In this document: positions 50,627 to 56,956 of the stretch, one piece after another
Numbering within the stretch: position 1 is the stretch's first letter
Layout: every line of letters begins with the position of its first letter
Assembly (NCBI GenBank): GCA_000526255.1
Contig: JAFS01000001.1
Location: 558,001 to 622,000, forward strand
Source: Verrucomicrobia bacterium LP2A
Lineage (GTDB): Bacteria; Verrucomicrobiota; Verrucomicrobiia; Methylacidiphilales; Methylacidiphilaceae
Direction of reading: 5' to 3'
DNA: 64,000 nucleotides
Notes under the pieces: generated by a model
What the model was told of the DNA's origin: nothing
Database searches by the model: none
Seen by the model: the letters and a program-made list of their open reading frames with translations, nothing else
Translations under genes and position numbers: made by a program

Positions 50627-53392
50627 ATGAGCAAAGCCCCAGCCAATCCGACCGAGTCGCTCTACCGTCGGTTTGTTGGTCTGCCTCTGGTGCTTTGGCG
50701 CTGGATCCTCGAACGGAAAAAAAGCAAGGAGCGTGCCAGGGAATCGGCTCTCCGCGAGACGGAGAAGGCGATCGCCCGGCATCTCTGGAATTTGAGCCGG
50801 GTTCCAATCCCCGATCTCTTGCGGGAACTCGGCACCTCCGAAGCGGGCCTCGAAGAGGAGGAGGCGGAGAAGCGGCTGGATGAGAGCGGGTATAATGAGG
50901 TCCATTCCGAGAAGCCGCCGAACTGGGCGCAGATGCTTCTCTGGAGCTACCTCAACCCGTTCGCCGTCCTTCTCACGGTCATGGCCGTAATGGCGGGCTG
51001 GCTGGGAGAGCGGTACGGGGTCTTCATCATGTCGGTGATGATCGGGGTGAGCGTTCTCCTCCGGTTCTTCCAGGAGTTCGAGTCGAGCCGGGCTGTCGAA
51101 AAGCTCAAGGCGATGGTCCGCACGACCGTGATGGTCCGGCGCCACTGGACGGAGTCCGAGGAGGGGCTTCCCGCTCCGGAGATGGCCCGGGGCCGGGAGA
51201 TCCCTCTTCGCCTGATCGTTCCCGGAGATATCATCCATCTCTCCGCCGGCGACATGATCCCCGCCGACGTAAGGCTGCTCTCCACTCGGGATCTTTTCGT
51301 GAGCCAGGCGGCTCTCTCCGGAGAATCCTTCCCGGTGGAAAAGTTTGATTCCCCCAGCGCACCCGGCGGAGGCGTCGAGCGTCCCGTCGATGTCTTCGGC
51401 CTACCGAACATCGCGTTCCTGGGGACCAACGTGATCTCCGGCACCGCGACGGCCGTCGCCTTGAGAACCGGTCCGTCGAGCTATTTTGGTGCCCTGGCCA
51501 AGGGGATTCGCGGTTATCGGGCGACGACGAGCTTCGATCAGAGTGTGAGCCGGGTGAGCTGGCTTCTCGTAAAGGTGATTGGGACGATGATCCCGATCGT
51601 TCTTCTGCTCAACGGGTTCACGAAGGGAAATTGGACGGAGGCCTTTCTTTTCGCCTTGGCCATCGGAGTGGGTCTCACCCCGGCGATGTTGCCGATGATC
51701 GTCACCGGGGCTTTAGCCAAAGGAGCGATCAGCCTCTCCCGCCGGAAGGTGATCACCAAGCGGCTCAATGCGATTCAAAACATCGGCGCGATGGACGTGC
51801 TCTGCACGGACAAGACGGGCACCCTGACTCACGACAAGATCATCCTGGAGCGATTCCTCGACGTGGAAGGAGAGGAAAGCCCGGAGGTGCTCGAGTATGC
51901 CTACCTGAACAGCTACTACCAGAGCGGCCTTCGCAACCTTCTCGATGCGGCCGTGCTCGAGCAGCGCGAGATCGGGATGCGACTCATCTCGCATTTTCAG
52001 AAGGTTGACGAGATCCCGTTCGATTTCGAGCGGCGCCGCATGTCGGTCGTGGCCCGCCGGGTCTCCAGCGGAAGAGACTTGTTGATCACCAAAGGAGCCG
52101 TGGAGGAGATGATCCGCATTTGCAGCCAGGTAAAGAAGGGGCAGGAGATCCTTCCGCTCTCCAAGGAGATGAAGCATCATGCCTTGACCTTGCGCGACGA
52201 GCTCAATGGCGATGGAATGCGGGTGGTCGCGGTCGCCTACAAGGAGCTGCCCGTGCAGGCCGGATCGATCGTTACGGCAGCCGACGAGAACGAGCTTACC
52301 TTCTGCGGCTTCATCGCCTTTCTCGATCCGCCGAAACACGACGCGGGGCCCGCGATTCAGGCCCTGCAAAAGTCGGGGGTCGAGGTGAAGGTAATCACGG
52401 GCGACAACGAGATTGTGACCTCTCGGATCTGCGACTGGGTCGGGCTCGAGATCAAAGGGATCCTGCGCGGTTTCGAGATCGAGAAGCTTTCCGACGAGGA
52501 GCTGATCGCCGCGTCGGAAAGCACGACCGCCTTTGTGAAGATGGCTCCGCTCCAGAAGGCTCGCGTGATTCGCGCGCTTCGGGCGGGCGGACATGCCGTC
52601 GGCTTTCTCGGGGACGGGATCAACGATGCTCCGGCGCTCCGGGAGGCCGACGTCGGCATTTCTGTCGACACCGCCGTCGATATTGCCAAGGAGTCAGCCG
52701 ACGTCATCCTCCTGGAGAAGAACCTCATGATTCTCGAAGAGGCGGTGATCGAGGGCCGCCGCATGTTCGGCAACATCGTCAAGTACATCAAGATGGCGAC
52801 GAGCTCGAATTTCGGGAACGTCCTGAGCGTTCTCGGATCGGGGGCGCTGCTTCCGTTCCTCCCGATGAAGCCTCTGCAGCTTCTCATCATCAACCTGATT
52901 TACGATCTGTCGCAGACGCTGATCCCCTGGGACCGGATGGACGACGAGTTCGTCTCCAAGCCCCGAAAGTGGGAAGCGGAAAGCATCGGCCGCTTCATGG
53001 CATTGATCGGCCCGATCAGCTCGATCTTCGACTATGCGACCTTTGCGGTGCTCTGGTTCGTCTTCCAGGCGAACACGCCAGCCCATCAATCCCTCTTTCA
53101 ATCGGGCTGGTTCGTCGAGAGCCTTCTTTCCCAAAGCCTCATCGTCCACATGATTCGAACCCGGAAAATTCCGTTCTTCCAGAGCGTCGCGGCGTGGCCG
53201 CTAGTCGTGGCGACGATCCTCGTCATCGTCCTCGGGCAGTTGATCCTCGCTACTCCTTTCGGGGCGGCGGCCGGACTGGTCCCTCTGCCGATGAACTTCT
53301 ACTTTTGGCTCTGGGGCATTCTCCTGTCCTACTGCGTGCTCACCCAGCTTGTGAAGAACTGGTATGTGCGACGGTTCGGCGAATGGCTGTGA
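50627..53392 (+). CDS. mgtA: Magnesium-translocating P-type ATPase
   Basis: A P3B-type ATPase of 921 residues from the ATG at 50627. It shows the phosphorylation motif DKTGTLT, the transmembrane GVGLTPAMLPMIVTG sequence (the MgtA/MgtB replacement for PEGL), TGD in KVITGDNEIV, and GDGINDAPALREADVGISVD. About ten membrane segments are predicted, with the last four at the C-terminus. It imports magnesium into the cytoplasm. The in-frame upstream extension overlaps nadE and is rejected. The 150-bp leader shows no structure I could assign. Confidence 0.95.
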   Translation: MSKAPANPTESLYRRFVGLPLVLWRWILERKKSKERARESALRETEKAIARHLWNLSRVPIPDLLRELGTSEAGLEEEEAEKRLDESGYNEVHSEKPPNWAQMLLWSYLNPFAVLLTVMAVMAGWLGERYGVFIMSVMIGVSVLLRFFQEFESSRAVEKLKAMVRTTVMVRRHWTESEEGLPAPEMARGREIPLRLIVPGDIIHLSAGDMIPADVRLLSTRDLFVSQAALSGESFPVEKFDSPSAPGGGVERPVDVFGLPNIAFLGTNVISGTATAVALRTGPSSYFGALAKGIRGYRATTSFDQSVSRVSWLLVKVIGTMIPIVLLLNGFTKGNWTEAFLFALAIGVGLTPAMLPMIVTGALAKGAISLSRRKVITKRLNAIQNIGAMDVLCTDKTGTLTHDKIILERFLDVEGEESPEVLEYAYLNSYYQSGLRNLLDAAVLEQREIGMRLISHFQKVDEIPFDFERRRMSVVARRVSSGRDLLITKGAVEEMIRICSQVKKGQEILPLSKEMKHHALTLRDELNGDGMRVVAVAYKELPVQAGSIVTAADENELTFCGFIAFLDPPKHDAGPAIQALQKSGVEVKVITGDNEIVTSRICDWVGLEIKGILRGFEIEKLSDEELIAASESTTAFVKMAPLQKARVIRALRAGGHAVGFLGDGINDAPALREADVGISVDTAVDIAKESADVILLEKNLMILEEAVIEGRRMFGNIVKYIKMATSSNFGNVLSVLGSGALLPFLPMKPLQLLIINLIYDLSQTLIPWDRMDDEFVSKPRKWEAESIGRFMALIGPISSIFDYATFAVLWFVFQANTPAHQSLFQSGWFVESLLSQSLIVHMIRTRKIPFFQSVAAWPLVVATILVIVLGQLILATPFGAAAGLVPLPMNFYFWLWGILLSYCVLTQLVKNWYVRRFGEWL

Positions 53393-53446
53393 GGGGAAAT
53401 TGCCCGTTGTCTTTCTTGCGCCGAGTCCGTAGCATCGAACCTCTTC

Positions 53447-54418
53447 ATGAACCTGCTGGCAATGGGCCGGAGGGTATTCGAGATCGAGATCGATTCCCTC
53501 CGCCTGGTGGAAAAAAAGTTGGGACCCTCCTTTGAGGAGGCCGTTCAACGTCTTTCCGACTCCGTTGCGGCAAGCCGCAAGGTGATCGTGGTGGGAGTCG
53601 GCAAGTCGGGCCACGTCGGTCAGAAGATCGCGGCGACCTTGGCCAGCACGGGGGCGCCGAGCGTGGTGCTCAACGCGGTAGACGCCTTTCACGGGGACCT
53701 GGGAATCGCCTGCGAGGGAGATGCGGCTCTGGCGCTCAGCTACAGCGGGGAGACCGAGGAGCTCGTCCGCCTGCTGCCCTATCTCAAGAGAATGAAGGTT
53801 TCCGTGATCGCAATGACCGGCAACCTCAAGTCAACCCTGGCGCAAAACGCGGACACGGTTCTCGACGTCGGGGTCGAGAAGGAAGCCTGTCCTCATAATC
53901 TGGCGCCCACCTCGAGCACCACGGCGATGCTCGCGCTCGGGGATGCGCTGGCGATGGTTCTTCTTGAGAAGCGGGGGTTCCAAAAAGAGGACTTTGCCCG
54001 CCTTCATCCGGGCGGGACTTTGGGGCGTAATCTCTTGCTGCGAGTGGGCGACATCATGCGGCCGAGAGAGGCGATCGTCGTTCTCCCTGGAAAAGCCACG
54101 GTGAAGGAGGCGCTGCGCCAGTGGAATCGAAAGAGGGCGGGGGCCGCCGTGGTCGTCGACGGAGGTGGCGCGGTCGAGGGGATCTTCACCCATGGAGACT
54201 TCGTGCGGCGGTACGAACGGGATCCTCAAGTAGGAGAGCTTCCGCTTTCCGCGGTGATTACGTCGCGCCCCGTCACGGTGCGAGTTGACAAGCTTGCGGT
54301 GGAGGTGCTCAATCTCTTTGAAGTCCATCGAATTGACGATCTCATCGTGGTCGATGGGGAGAATCGGCCGGTCGGGATGGTCGACTCGAGAGATCTTACC
54401 ATGCACAAATTGATGTAG
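53447..54418 (+). CDS. kdsD: Arabinose-5-phosphate isomerase
   Basis: KdsD/KpsF enzyme making D-arabinose 5-phosphate from ribulose 5-phosphate for KDO in lipopolysaccharide. The SIS domain (about 40-190) has [20 protein letters not shown] and [15 protein letters not shown], with the [11 protein letters not shown] motif closing it. Two CBS domains follow to residue 323. It implies a Gram-negative outer membrane with KDO. 16 bp ahead of efp. Confidence 0.95.
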
Positions 54419-54434
54419 AGAAGATGACGCATCT

Positions 54435-54992
54435 ATGACGAACGCGAGCGATGTCAGCAAGGGGCAGGCGATCCACCATCACGGTGCCGTCTGCCTCGTC
54501 TTGGAGACCCAACACAGAACCCCGGGGAATCTGCGCGCCTTTGTCCAGATGACGCTGCGCAACCTGAAAACAGGCAGGTCTTCGGTAGAACGCTTCAGCT
54601 CATCGGACAAGGTCGAGCTGGTCAGCGTAACTCGGAAGAAGTGCGAATTCAGCTACCGCGAAGGCAAAGACTATGTCTTCATGGATCCGGACAGCTATGA
54701 AAGCATCCCGGTTCCGGAAGATCTGGTCGGTAAGGCGAAGGACTACCTCATCGAAAACCAGGTTGTCGATCTTCTGTTCACCGATGAGGTGGTGGCCGCG
54801 GTCGAGCTGCCGCCCACCGTCACCTTGAAGGTAGTCAGCTCTCCGGAAGGGATCCGCGGCGATTCGGCAACGAACGTGATGAAGATCGCCGAGGTCGAGA
54901 CGGGCTTGAACGTCCAGGTCCCGCTCTTCATCAAGGAGGGAGAGAAGATCAAGGTGAGCACGGCGGAGGGCAAGTATTTGAGCCGCGCATAG
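54435..54992 (+). CDS. efp: Elongation factor P, Asn-tip type
   Basis: Rescues ribosomes stalled on polyproline. 185 residues, three beta-barrel domains of normal length. The domain I tip loop reads [10 protein letters not shown], aligning Asn32 with Lys34 of E. coli EF-P, which is lysylated, and with the Arg of the rhamnosylated group. Neither modification is therefore expected. No epmA, epmB, earP or ymfI-like gene is nearby. KdsD lies just upstream and the XRE fusion protein 49 bp downstream. Confidence 0.95.
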
Positions 54993-55041: not shown

Positions 55042-55890
55042 GTGCCGGAGAAACAAGAACCTATGCCGGAATGGGTCAAGATCCTCCAAGCTGCTCAGAT
55101 TGGCATGGGGTGGACGGATGAGAGGCTGGCGGAACGTTCCGATACGCCTCTGCGAAAGCTGCGGGAGTTGAAAGCGGGAAGCCTCGAGCCCGCCGCGCTT
55201 CGCTCTGTGGCCCACGCCTTGCGCTTGGGAGCTGACGCCCTGCTCGCTCTGGCGCAGGAAGGAAGCCGCTCCCCCCTCTTTCCGCCGCCGCGAACCCTCG
55301 GGAGCATCGAGACTGGATCGGGACGAGGGTATCTGCTCTGGGATTCGCCGTCGCGGCTCGCATCTCTGATCGATATCGGGGAAGCGTGCCCGCCGGCGGT
55401 GCGTCTCCTGGAAAGTGAATTCCTGGTGCCGCGCTATCTCTTCTTCACCGAACGGCGCCGCCTCGCTGAGCCCGCTTGGATCCGGTTCCTGGGGGAGCGG
55501 GGCGCTCTGCCGCTTCGACCGGAGGCGGAAGATACAGACGGGACTTTCTCTCTGGGAACCCTTCAGATGGAGCGTCGCCTCGTGGTCGCCCAAGGAGGAG
55601 CCGGCCATCTCCTCTACGTCGTCCACGGCATGGAGGTGCCGGTCGCTTTCATCGGCCGGTCGTTGCTGGCTCCGACGGGCGCGTCCCTGGAAGAGGATGG
55701 CCGTCTCTACGCGACATGGCTGGAAGAGGTCCGTTCGCATATTTTTACTCTGAGCGACGAAACCCTCCTCTGTCCCTCGGGCGGGCCCATTACCTCGGTC
55801 GGCTTTGAAAAAGCCCATAACCCGTTCTTTCCCGAATTCGAGCATTTTTCGTCCTTCGCCAACTTAACCGAGGAGACTCGCAATCCGTGA
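55042..55890 (+). CDS. XRE-type helix-turn-helix fused to a metallo-beta-lactamase fold without metal site
   Basis: 282 residues. The N-terminal 70 resemble an XRE/Cro DNA-binding domain (IGMGWTDERLAERSDTPLRK, LRSVAHALRLGADALLALA). The rest follows a metallo-beta-lactamase scaffold: YLLWDSPSRLASLIDIGEAC, then VPRYLFFTERRRLAEP where HxHxDH should be, GGAGHLLYVVHGMEVPVAFI where the GHTPGS loop usually is, and a closing GGPITSVGFEKAHNPFFPE. The metal-binding His/Asp residues are absent, so it is probably a non-enzymatic sensor or regulator. The start could be the ATG at 55063. It sits between efp and prs on the same strand. Confidence 0.65.
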   Translation: MPEKQEPMPEWVKILQAAQIGMGWTDERLAERSDTPLRKLRELKAGSLEPAALRSVAHALRLGADALLALAQEGSRSPLFPPPRTLGSIETGSGRGYLLWDSPSRLASLIDIGEACPPAVRLLESEFLVPRYLFFTERRRLAEPAWIRFLGERGALPLRPEAEDTDGTFSLGTLQMERRLVVAQGGAGHLLYVVHGMEVPVAFIGRSLLAPTGASLEEDGRLYATWLEEVRSHIFTLSDETLLCPSGGPITSVGFEKAHNPFFPEFEHFSSFANLTEETRNP

Positions 55891-55984: not shown

Positions 55985-56956
55985 ATGAATGGAGAGAAAT
56001 CCCATCCGCTTCTCGTCTTCACGGGGAGCGCCAACCGGCCGCTGGCGGAGCAGATCGTCGAATCGATCGACATCCCCTTGGGCGCGGCTACGATCTCCGC
56101 GTTTCCCGACGGGGAGACCTTCGTGAAGATCGACGAAAACATCCGGGGACGCGATGTCTTCCTCGTTCAACCGACCTGTCCGCCGACCAATCATAACATT
56201 ATGGAGCTGCTGATCATGATCGATGCCGCCCGGCGGGCCAGCGCGGCGCGGGTGACGGCGGTGATCCCATTTTACGGCTACGCCCGGCAGGATCGTAAGG
56301 ATCGGCCGCGCGTGGCGATCACCGCCAAGCTGGTCGCAAACCTCCTGGTCGCCGCCGGTGTCAACCGTGTGCTGACGGTCGATCTCCACGCCCAACAGAT
56401 TCAAGGGTTCTTCGACATTCCGGTTGATCATCTTTACGCCGCACCCGTGATCTATCGGTACTTGGCGACCAAAGATCTCTCCAACCTGGTTGTCGTCTCG
56501 CCGGATGTCGGAGGGATCAAGCTGGCCTCGAGCTACGCGCAGCTGCTGGGAGCGGGGCTCGCAATGGTGGTCAAGCGTCGCGTCGATGCGGAGCATACCG
56601 AAGCTCAATTCGTGGTGGGAGACGTTGATGGCCGGGATGTTTTGATCGTGGACGACCTGACGGAAACGGCCGGAACGGTGACCTCGGCGGCGCGAATCCT
56701 CAAGGAGAGGGGAGCACGACGGATCTTCGCCGGCATCTCCCATGCAGTGCTCAATCCATTGGGGATAAAGCGGATGCAGGAATCATGCTTGGAGGAGCTC
56801 ATCACGACGAATACGGTGCCGTTCCATCCGGTGGAAGGAATGAAGGTAACAGTTCTCGATGTCGCTCCCCTGCTGGGAGAGGCGATCAAGCGGATCCACA
56901 ACGGCCAATCGGTTTCTTCCCTCTTCCGCGTGGATGGAAAGATGGTTCTCCTATGA
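55985..56956 (+). CDS. prs: Ribose-phosphate pyrophosphokinase
   Basis: Makes PRPP from ribose 5-phosphate and ATP for nucleotide, histidine and NAD synthesis. FTGSANRPLAEQI, FPDGETFVKIDENIRG, YGYARQDRKDRPR, VDLHAQQIQGFFDIPVDHLY and the PRPP loop IVDDLTETAGT are present. The ATG at 55985 gives 323 residues; eleven upstream residues are unlikely. The stop overlaps the Lrp-family start (ATGA). Confidence 0.96.
   Translation: MNGEKSHPLLVFTGSANRPLAEQIVESIDIPLGAATISAFPDGETFVKIDENIRGRDVFLVQPTCPPTNHNIMELLIMIDAARRASAARVTAVIPFYGYARQDRKDRPRVAITAKLVANLLVAAGVNRVLTVDLHAQQIQGFFDIPVDHLYAAPVIYRYLATKDLSNLVVVSPDVGGIKLASSYAQLLGAGLAMVVKRRVDAEHTEAQFVVGDVDGRDVLIVDDLTETAGTVTSAARILKERGARRIFAGISHAVLNPLGIKRMQESCLEELITTNTVPFHPVEGMKVTVLDVAPLLGEAIKRIHNGQSVSSLFRVDGKMVLL

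Follow-up and report, generated by a model that had tools for sequence, protein, structure and literature searches.

The gene analyzed here, called X, almost certainly encodes a metal-free paralog, or pseudoenzyme, of a glyoxalase II/YcbL-like metallo-beta-lactamase (MBL) protein that carries a helix-turn-helix (HTH) head and is found throughout the Verrucomicrobiae. It lies in the window, the whole 64,000-nucleotide stretch of DNA under study, within an open frame that spans 282 codons (55042-55890, plus strand). The original prediction began the gene at the GTG at 55042, which is probably too early; the true start is probably the ATG at 55063, because the Methylacidimicrobium orthologs all align from that Met and because a stop sits just upstream in species G004. 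X shares its strand with a kdsD-like gene, efp, and prs, and is separated from efp by 70 bp and from prs by 94 bp. The features discussed below are as follows.

53447..54418, plus strand: kdsD-like SIS-CBS sugar-phosphate isomerase gene, upstream of efp (Pfam SIS, CBS).
54435..54992, plus strand: efp, elongation factor P, upstream neighbor of X (Pfam EFP_N, EFP, Elong-fact-P_C).
55063..55890, plus strand: X, metal-free HTH-MBL pseudoenzyme gene, 275 amino acids (open frame, start from ortholog alignment, MBL fold, purifying selection).
55063..55260, plus strand: residues 1-66 of X, XRE/lambda-repressor-like five-helix head (model helices, profile matches).
55444..55476, plus strand: FFTERRRLAEP, residues 128-138 of X, in place of the FLTHTHGDHIA metal motif (alignment with paralog L031 and 22 other canonical homologs).
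55747..55887, plus strand: residues 229-275 of X, conserved C-terminal end (ETLLCPSGGPITSVGFEKAHNPFFPE) and clade-specific tail (FEHFSSFANLTEE) (invariance, low dN).
55985..56956, plus strand: prs, ribose-phosphate pyrophosphokinase, downstream neighbor of X (Pfam Pribosyltran_N, Pribosyl_synth; ATG at 55985 read from the sequence).

Searches of plasmids and viral contigs for a mobile or viral origin of X gave no match, and a literature search on the gene found no paper.

Searched alone against Pfam, the window protein matched no family, nor did its orthologs give a match, and the tested members of the canonical, metal-competent form match Lactamase_B at 63-74 bits. The MBL scaffold proposed originally was nonetheless borne out by two comparisons. 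A profile built from the metal-free copies only, with all paralogs left out, matches BLEG-1 (7ev5, E=1.3e-8) and YcbL (2xf4, E=1.3e-7). The AlphaFold2 model of X (pLDDT 86.7, pTM 0.85) has the alpha-beta/beta-alpha fold of the MBL superfamily and superimposes on 2xf4 with a Z score of 17.4 over 167 residues at 2.4 A; since the alignment supplied to AlphaFold2 included canonical rows, the assignment rests also on the X-only profile. Across the YcbL/glyoxalase II-type hydrolases compared (2xf4, 7ev5 BLEG-1, 7l0b GloB, and 1qh3), Z ranges from 15.9 to 17.4, but these are metalloenzymes without an HTH head, whereas X has the head and no metal ligand. The intact paralog was modeled with a pLDDT of 96.0 and a Z of 26.7 to BLEG-1.

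Homologs were sought among the proteins of 60 related genomes and were found in 57, in two classes. The canonical class has the full ligand set, THTHxDH, GHS, GDSLF, and PGHGP, with the seven ligand positions invariant in 45 proteins. The placement of the lost motif in the original prediction was right: LFFTERRRLAEPAW of X lines up with IFLTHTHGDHIAAL of the intact paralog in the same genome, with FFTERRRLAEP falling exactly on FLTHTHGDHIA. The downstream ligands are gone as well (GHS to QGG, GDSLF to GRSLL, and PGHGP to PSGGP), so that all seven positions differ from the paralog and every metal ligand is indeed replaced. The same holds for the nine full-length X orthologs, none of which retains a ligand; their residues at the seven positions are E/K, R/H/S/N/I/M, L/P/E, A/V/I/L/M, G/E/D/K/N, R/K/N, and G/S/E/A/I/R (the single H being at position 132 of G004), and the substitutes vary both between and within genera. 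The ligand pattern of an MBL metallo-hydrolase (HxHxDH, GH, D, and a second H) is thus lacking in 9/9 orthologs. Homologs with HxHxDH in the aligned position, named beforehand as counterevidence, exist among the paralogs only. It is very improbable that X is still an active enzyme using a metal-free or remodeled site; E130 does stand in place of the first His in eight of the nine copies, and the MBL core has D104 and Y90 unchanged in every copy, but there is no other conserved polar set, and positions 132, 134, 135, 178, 199, and 240 all vary.

The genome that holds X also holds an intact canonical copy of identical architecture (G000:C1:287525-288331), as do all near-complete genomes with X. 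An hhalign comparison of X with the canonical profile gave a probability of 100 and E=3e-51 over 255 columns, end to end and including the head, and X thus has the full-length combination, XRE-like head plus YcbL-like MBL, that defines the Verrucomicrobiae HTH-MBL family. X shares about 30% identity and the GPxTxVxxEKxHNPFF end with that family and with its own-genome paralog, but the paralog keeps all metal ligands, is without the FSSFxxLTE tail of X, and lies elsewhere in the genome. The canonical head-bearing form is found across the class, from which it follows that the HTH-MBL fusion is old and that only the metal loss is new. In one genome, the neighbors of the canonical copy are biotin ligase-like and MGDG-synthase/PHP-type genes upstream and a ZnuA-like gene downstream, which gave no clear functional lead.

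Family f12 of the class contains a second set of HTH-MBL paralogs, in which HxExEH replaces HxHxDH in 8/8 members (for example THPETEH, THYEAEH): L094:3663-4649, L098:3056-4129, L107:3760-4617, L100:3660-4517, L096:3602-4558, L106:3354-4211, L105:3450-4346, and L103:3612-4478. These proteins keep the GH, D, and PGHGP ligands, apparently as a remodeled metal site, and their heads are strongly acidic, with net charges of -5 to -10. Separately, the order-level relative G015 has two full-length head-bearing HTH-MBL matches (C173:801-1610 and C62:1152-1931), suggesting that duplication may have occurred more than once in the order.

The metal-free copies form one clade (SH-aLRT 99) limited to Methylacidimicrobium and Methylacidiphilum, with scores of 277-468 bits in 10 Methylacidiphilaceae genomes and no more than about 150 bits in the rest of the order. 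A topology test on the timing of the duplication did not reject a clade of X with the canonical copies of its own family (AU p 0.22), and the X branch is long. The position beside efp that had been pointed out is fixed between efp and prs in both genera: the order efp-X-prs is complete in eight genomes, G009 has a contig break between efp and X that leaves only the prs side visible, and G002 has a partial X at a contig end. Efp and prs are adjacent without X in G008. X has been lost independently in two other genomes. In the efp-prs gap of G005 (L067:7605-7914), the middle of X has been deleted and its two ends joined, leaving roughly 50 codons in an open frame. In that of G010 (L065:4769-5274), the core is deleted; a degraded head frame of some 90 codons is left, along with a remnant of the GHNPFF end. 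The canonical copy is kept in G005, G010, and G008; the losses of X in the first two with the paralog kept indicate that X is dispensable and that the paralog does not need it.

Where the gene is present, it is under purifying selection. Omega is 0.14-0.34 in all measurable within-genus pairs, and none of the nine full-length copies has an internal stop, which also rules out a chance or frameshift artifact. By comparison, efp, kdsD, and prs have omega values of about 0.02-0.11, several times below those of X, and the canonical copy has 0.04-0.28. X has lost its catalytic residues and is kept as a protein by selection, as is understood by a pseudoenzyme, and the proposal of an enzyme fold reused without its metal is supported. 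Constraint is unevenly spread: the core (residues 67-228), which contains the pocket, evolves fastest, with dN of 0.10-0.37, and residues 229-275 have dN of 0.02-0.11 with dS not reduced, so that the constraint there acts on the protein. The head has 21/66 positions invariant across the genera, the core 14/162, and residues 229-275 have 22/47; within the head, selection acts on the helical core. Just 3 of the 275 circular windows match the C-terminal one in conservation. The short tail, FSSFxxLTE, is conserved in X of both genera, is absent from canonical proteins, and was modeled at low confidence (pLDDT 42-53).

We also considered whether the 3' conservation reflects an element in the DNA or RNA that acts on prs, and rejected this, as synonymous sites there are not slowed. 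No Rfam match and no terminator-like site turned up, and the one promoter-like site is weak and lies inside prs.

X could instead be a slowly decaying relic, a functionally unimportant duplicate adrift between efp and prs. Its fast evolution relative to its neighbors, the broken or deleted copies in G005 and G010, and its absence from G008 all fit such a course. The low omega and intact frames, however, together with a C-terminus and tail conserved in two genera while synonymous sites change freely, make decay quite unlikely.

The head of X has helices at residues 3-14, 19-26, 30-37, 43-52, and 57-66 of the full-length AlphaFold2 model. A profile search with residues 1-70 gave MBF1 (2mez) as the top match at E 0.00038, then 434 repressor/Cro variants at 0.0005-0.004 and cyanase (8c7e) at 0.011, and Pfam gave weak HTH matches; together with the five helices these identify a lambda-repressor-like fold of the kind found in XRE regulators. 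The original description of a DNA-binding head attached to an enzyme fold is thus correct as to the HTH-type head but not as to its attachment, the head being already present in the intact paralog across the Verrucomicrobiae. The canonical heads all keep an E and a D ahead of helix 1, a D and a K within it, and the leucines of the core. Their recognition helix, in contrast, ranks with the most variable parts, and their charge averages about -1.8 and falls as low as -8. Judged from sequence, this pattern appears to fit a structural or oligomerization head better than one that reads DNA in a conserved way. The X clade does not keep the canonical E4, D9, and K13, so that its head may pack differently, and has L33, L36, K37, and G39 invariant. 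Signs of sequence-specific DNA binding by the head appear weak, given the variable recognition helix, the near-neutral charge, and the lack of a conserved operator. Cyanase has a lambda-repressor-like head that is not known to be used for DNA binding. The N-terminal domain of this cyanate hydratase resembles the X head, although its catalytic domain is unrelated, and in the fungal enzyme that domain makes the decamer interfaces (PMC7801690).

These observations bear on whether X acts as a transcription factor of the XRE type, with a small molecule bound in its dead MBL pocket and kdsD-efp-X-prs under its control, much as the original prediction of a ligand sensor controlling efp or prs supposed. 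The 434 repressor/Cro and MBF1 resemblance, the four invariant head residues, head charges (-2 to +2) that are on average less acidic than the canonical ones, and the clustering of the genes on one strand would suit such a regulator. Yet the metal-competent paralog has the same head class-wide, the pocket and the ligand-replacing positions are unconserved within the fastest-evolving part of the protein, and the intergenic DNA flanking X is unconserved and holds no conserved operator. The sensor and the control of efp or prs are accordingly not supported, and we regard this reading as fairly unlikely. The kdsD upstream region, suggested as a target, fares no better, as its conserved stretch is equally present in a species that lost X. 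Across five Methylacidimicrobium species, that gap (window 53390-53447) shows about 81% identity and includes a common TTGnCCGTTGTnTTTC stretch, possibly as a promoter.

A role in translation, in which X would bind the ribosome or EF-P through its MBF1-like head and its dead scaffold, would agree with the adjacency to efp, with the best head match, and with the match of the X model to mt-SAF20, an MBL-fold protein of the trypanosome mitoribosomal small-subunit assembly complex (6sg9_FL, Z 14.5). In G008, however, efp lies next to prs without any X between them, so that the adjacency of X may be incidental, and we consider this role distinctly improbable.

Conserved ends with a variable pocket speak against sensing through the pocket and favor a scaffold whose contact surfaces lie at both ends. 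A pseudoenzyme acting by protein contacts is our best overall explanation, with about an even chance of being right as a whole. X would no longer catalyze, its MBL core would serve as a permissive scaffold, and its head and C-terminal end with the tail would contact other proteins; this scaffold or partner mode of action we hold to be nearly as likely as not to apply. The higher omega of X than of its neighbors, its dispensability, the low-confidence model of the tail, and the canonical head residues that X has not kept count against it. That the head and tail bind the active HTH-MBL paralog, or else EF-P or Prs, and regulate that partner is possible but somewhat unlikely. The likeliest single partner, though itself rather unlikely, would be the intact paralog of the same genome, even though that paralog persists where X is lost, and the alternative would be a product of the neighboring genes.

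The best-known metal-free MBL paralogs act in eukaryotic RNA processing. There, CPSF100 and INTS9 are the metal-free MBL partners of CPSF73 and INTS11 (PMC4819959). Each is an MBL paralog with a broken HxHxDH beside an active paralog, as is X, but they are subunits of the eukaryotic RNA-processing machinery, and the link between X and its paralog is their co-occurrence in a genome. Among bacteria, the metformin hydrolase MetCa/MetCb likewise joins a metal-free pseudoenzyme, MetCb, to its active paralog, MetCa, and DnhAB has been named as an MBL-family case (PMC11271267). MetCa/MetCb, however, belongs to the arginase family, is a demonstrated complex, and is encoded in one gene cluster, whereas X is an MBL protein with its paralog elsewhere in the genome.

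X offers a compact bacterial case, with nine orthologs in two genera, an intact sister copy, a relative without X (G008), and two natural losses, and this set allows a direct test of what selection keeps after metal loss. The HTH-MBL fusion, as an old class-wide architecture, is no proof of a transcription factor. If the proposed explanation is true, the acid-loving, methane-eating verrucomicrobial methanotrophs would contain an enzyme-pseudoenzyme pair, and finding the partner of X would give a hint at what the intact enzyme does, whose class-wide family has no known function.
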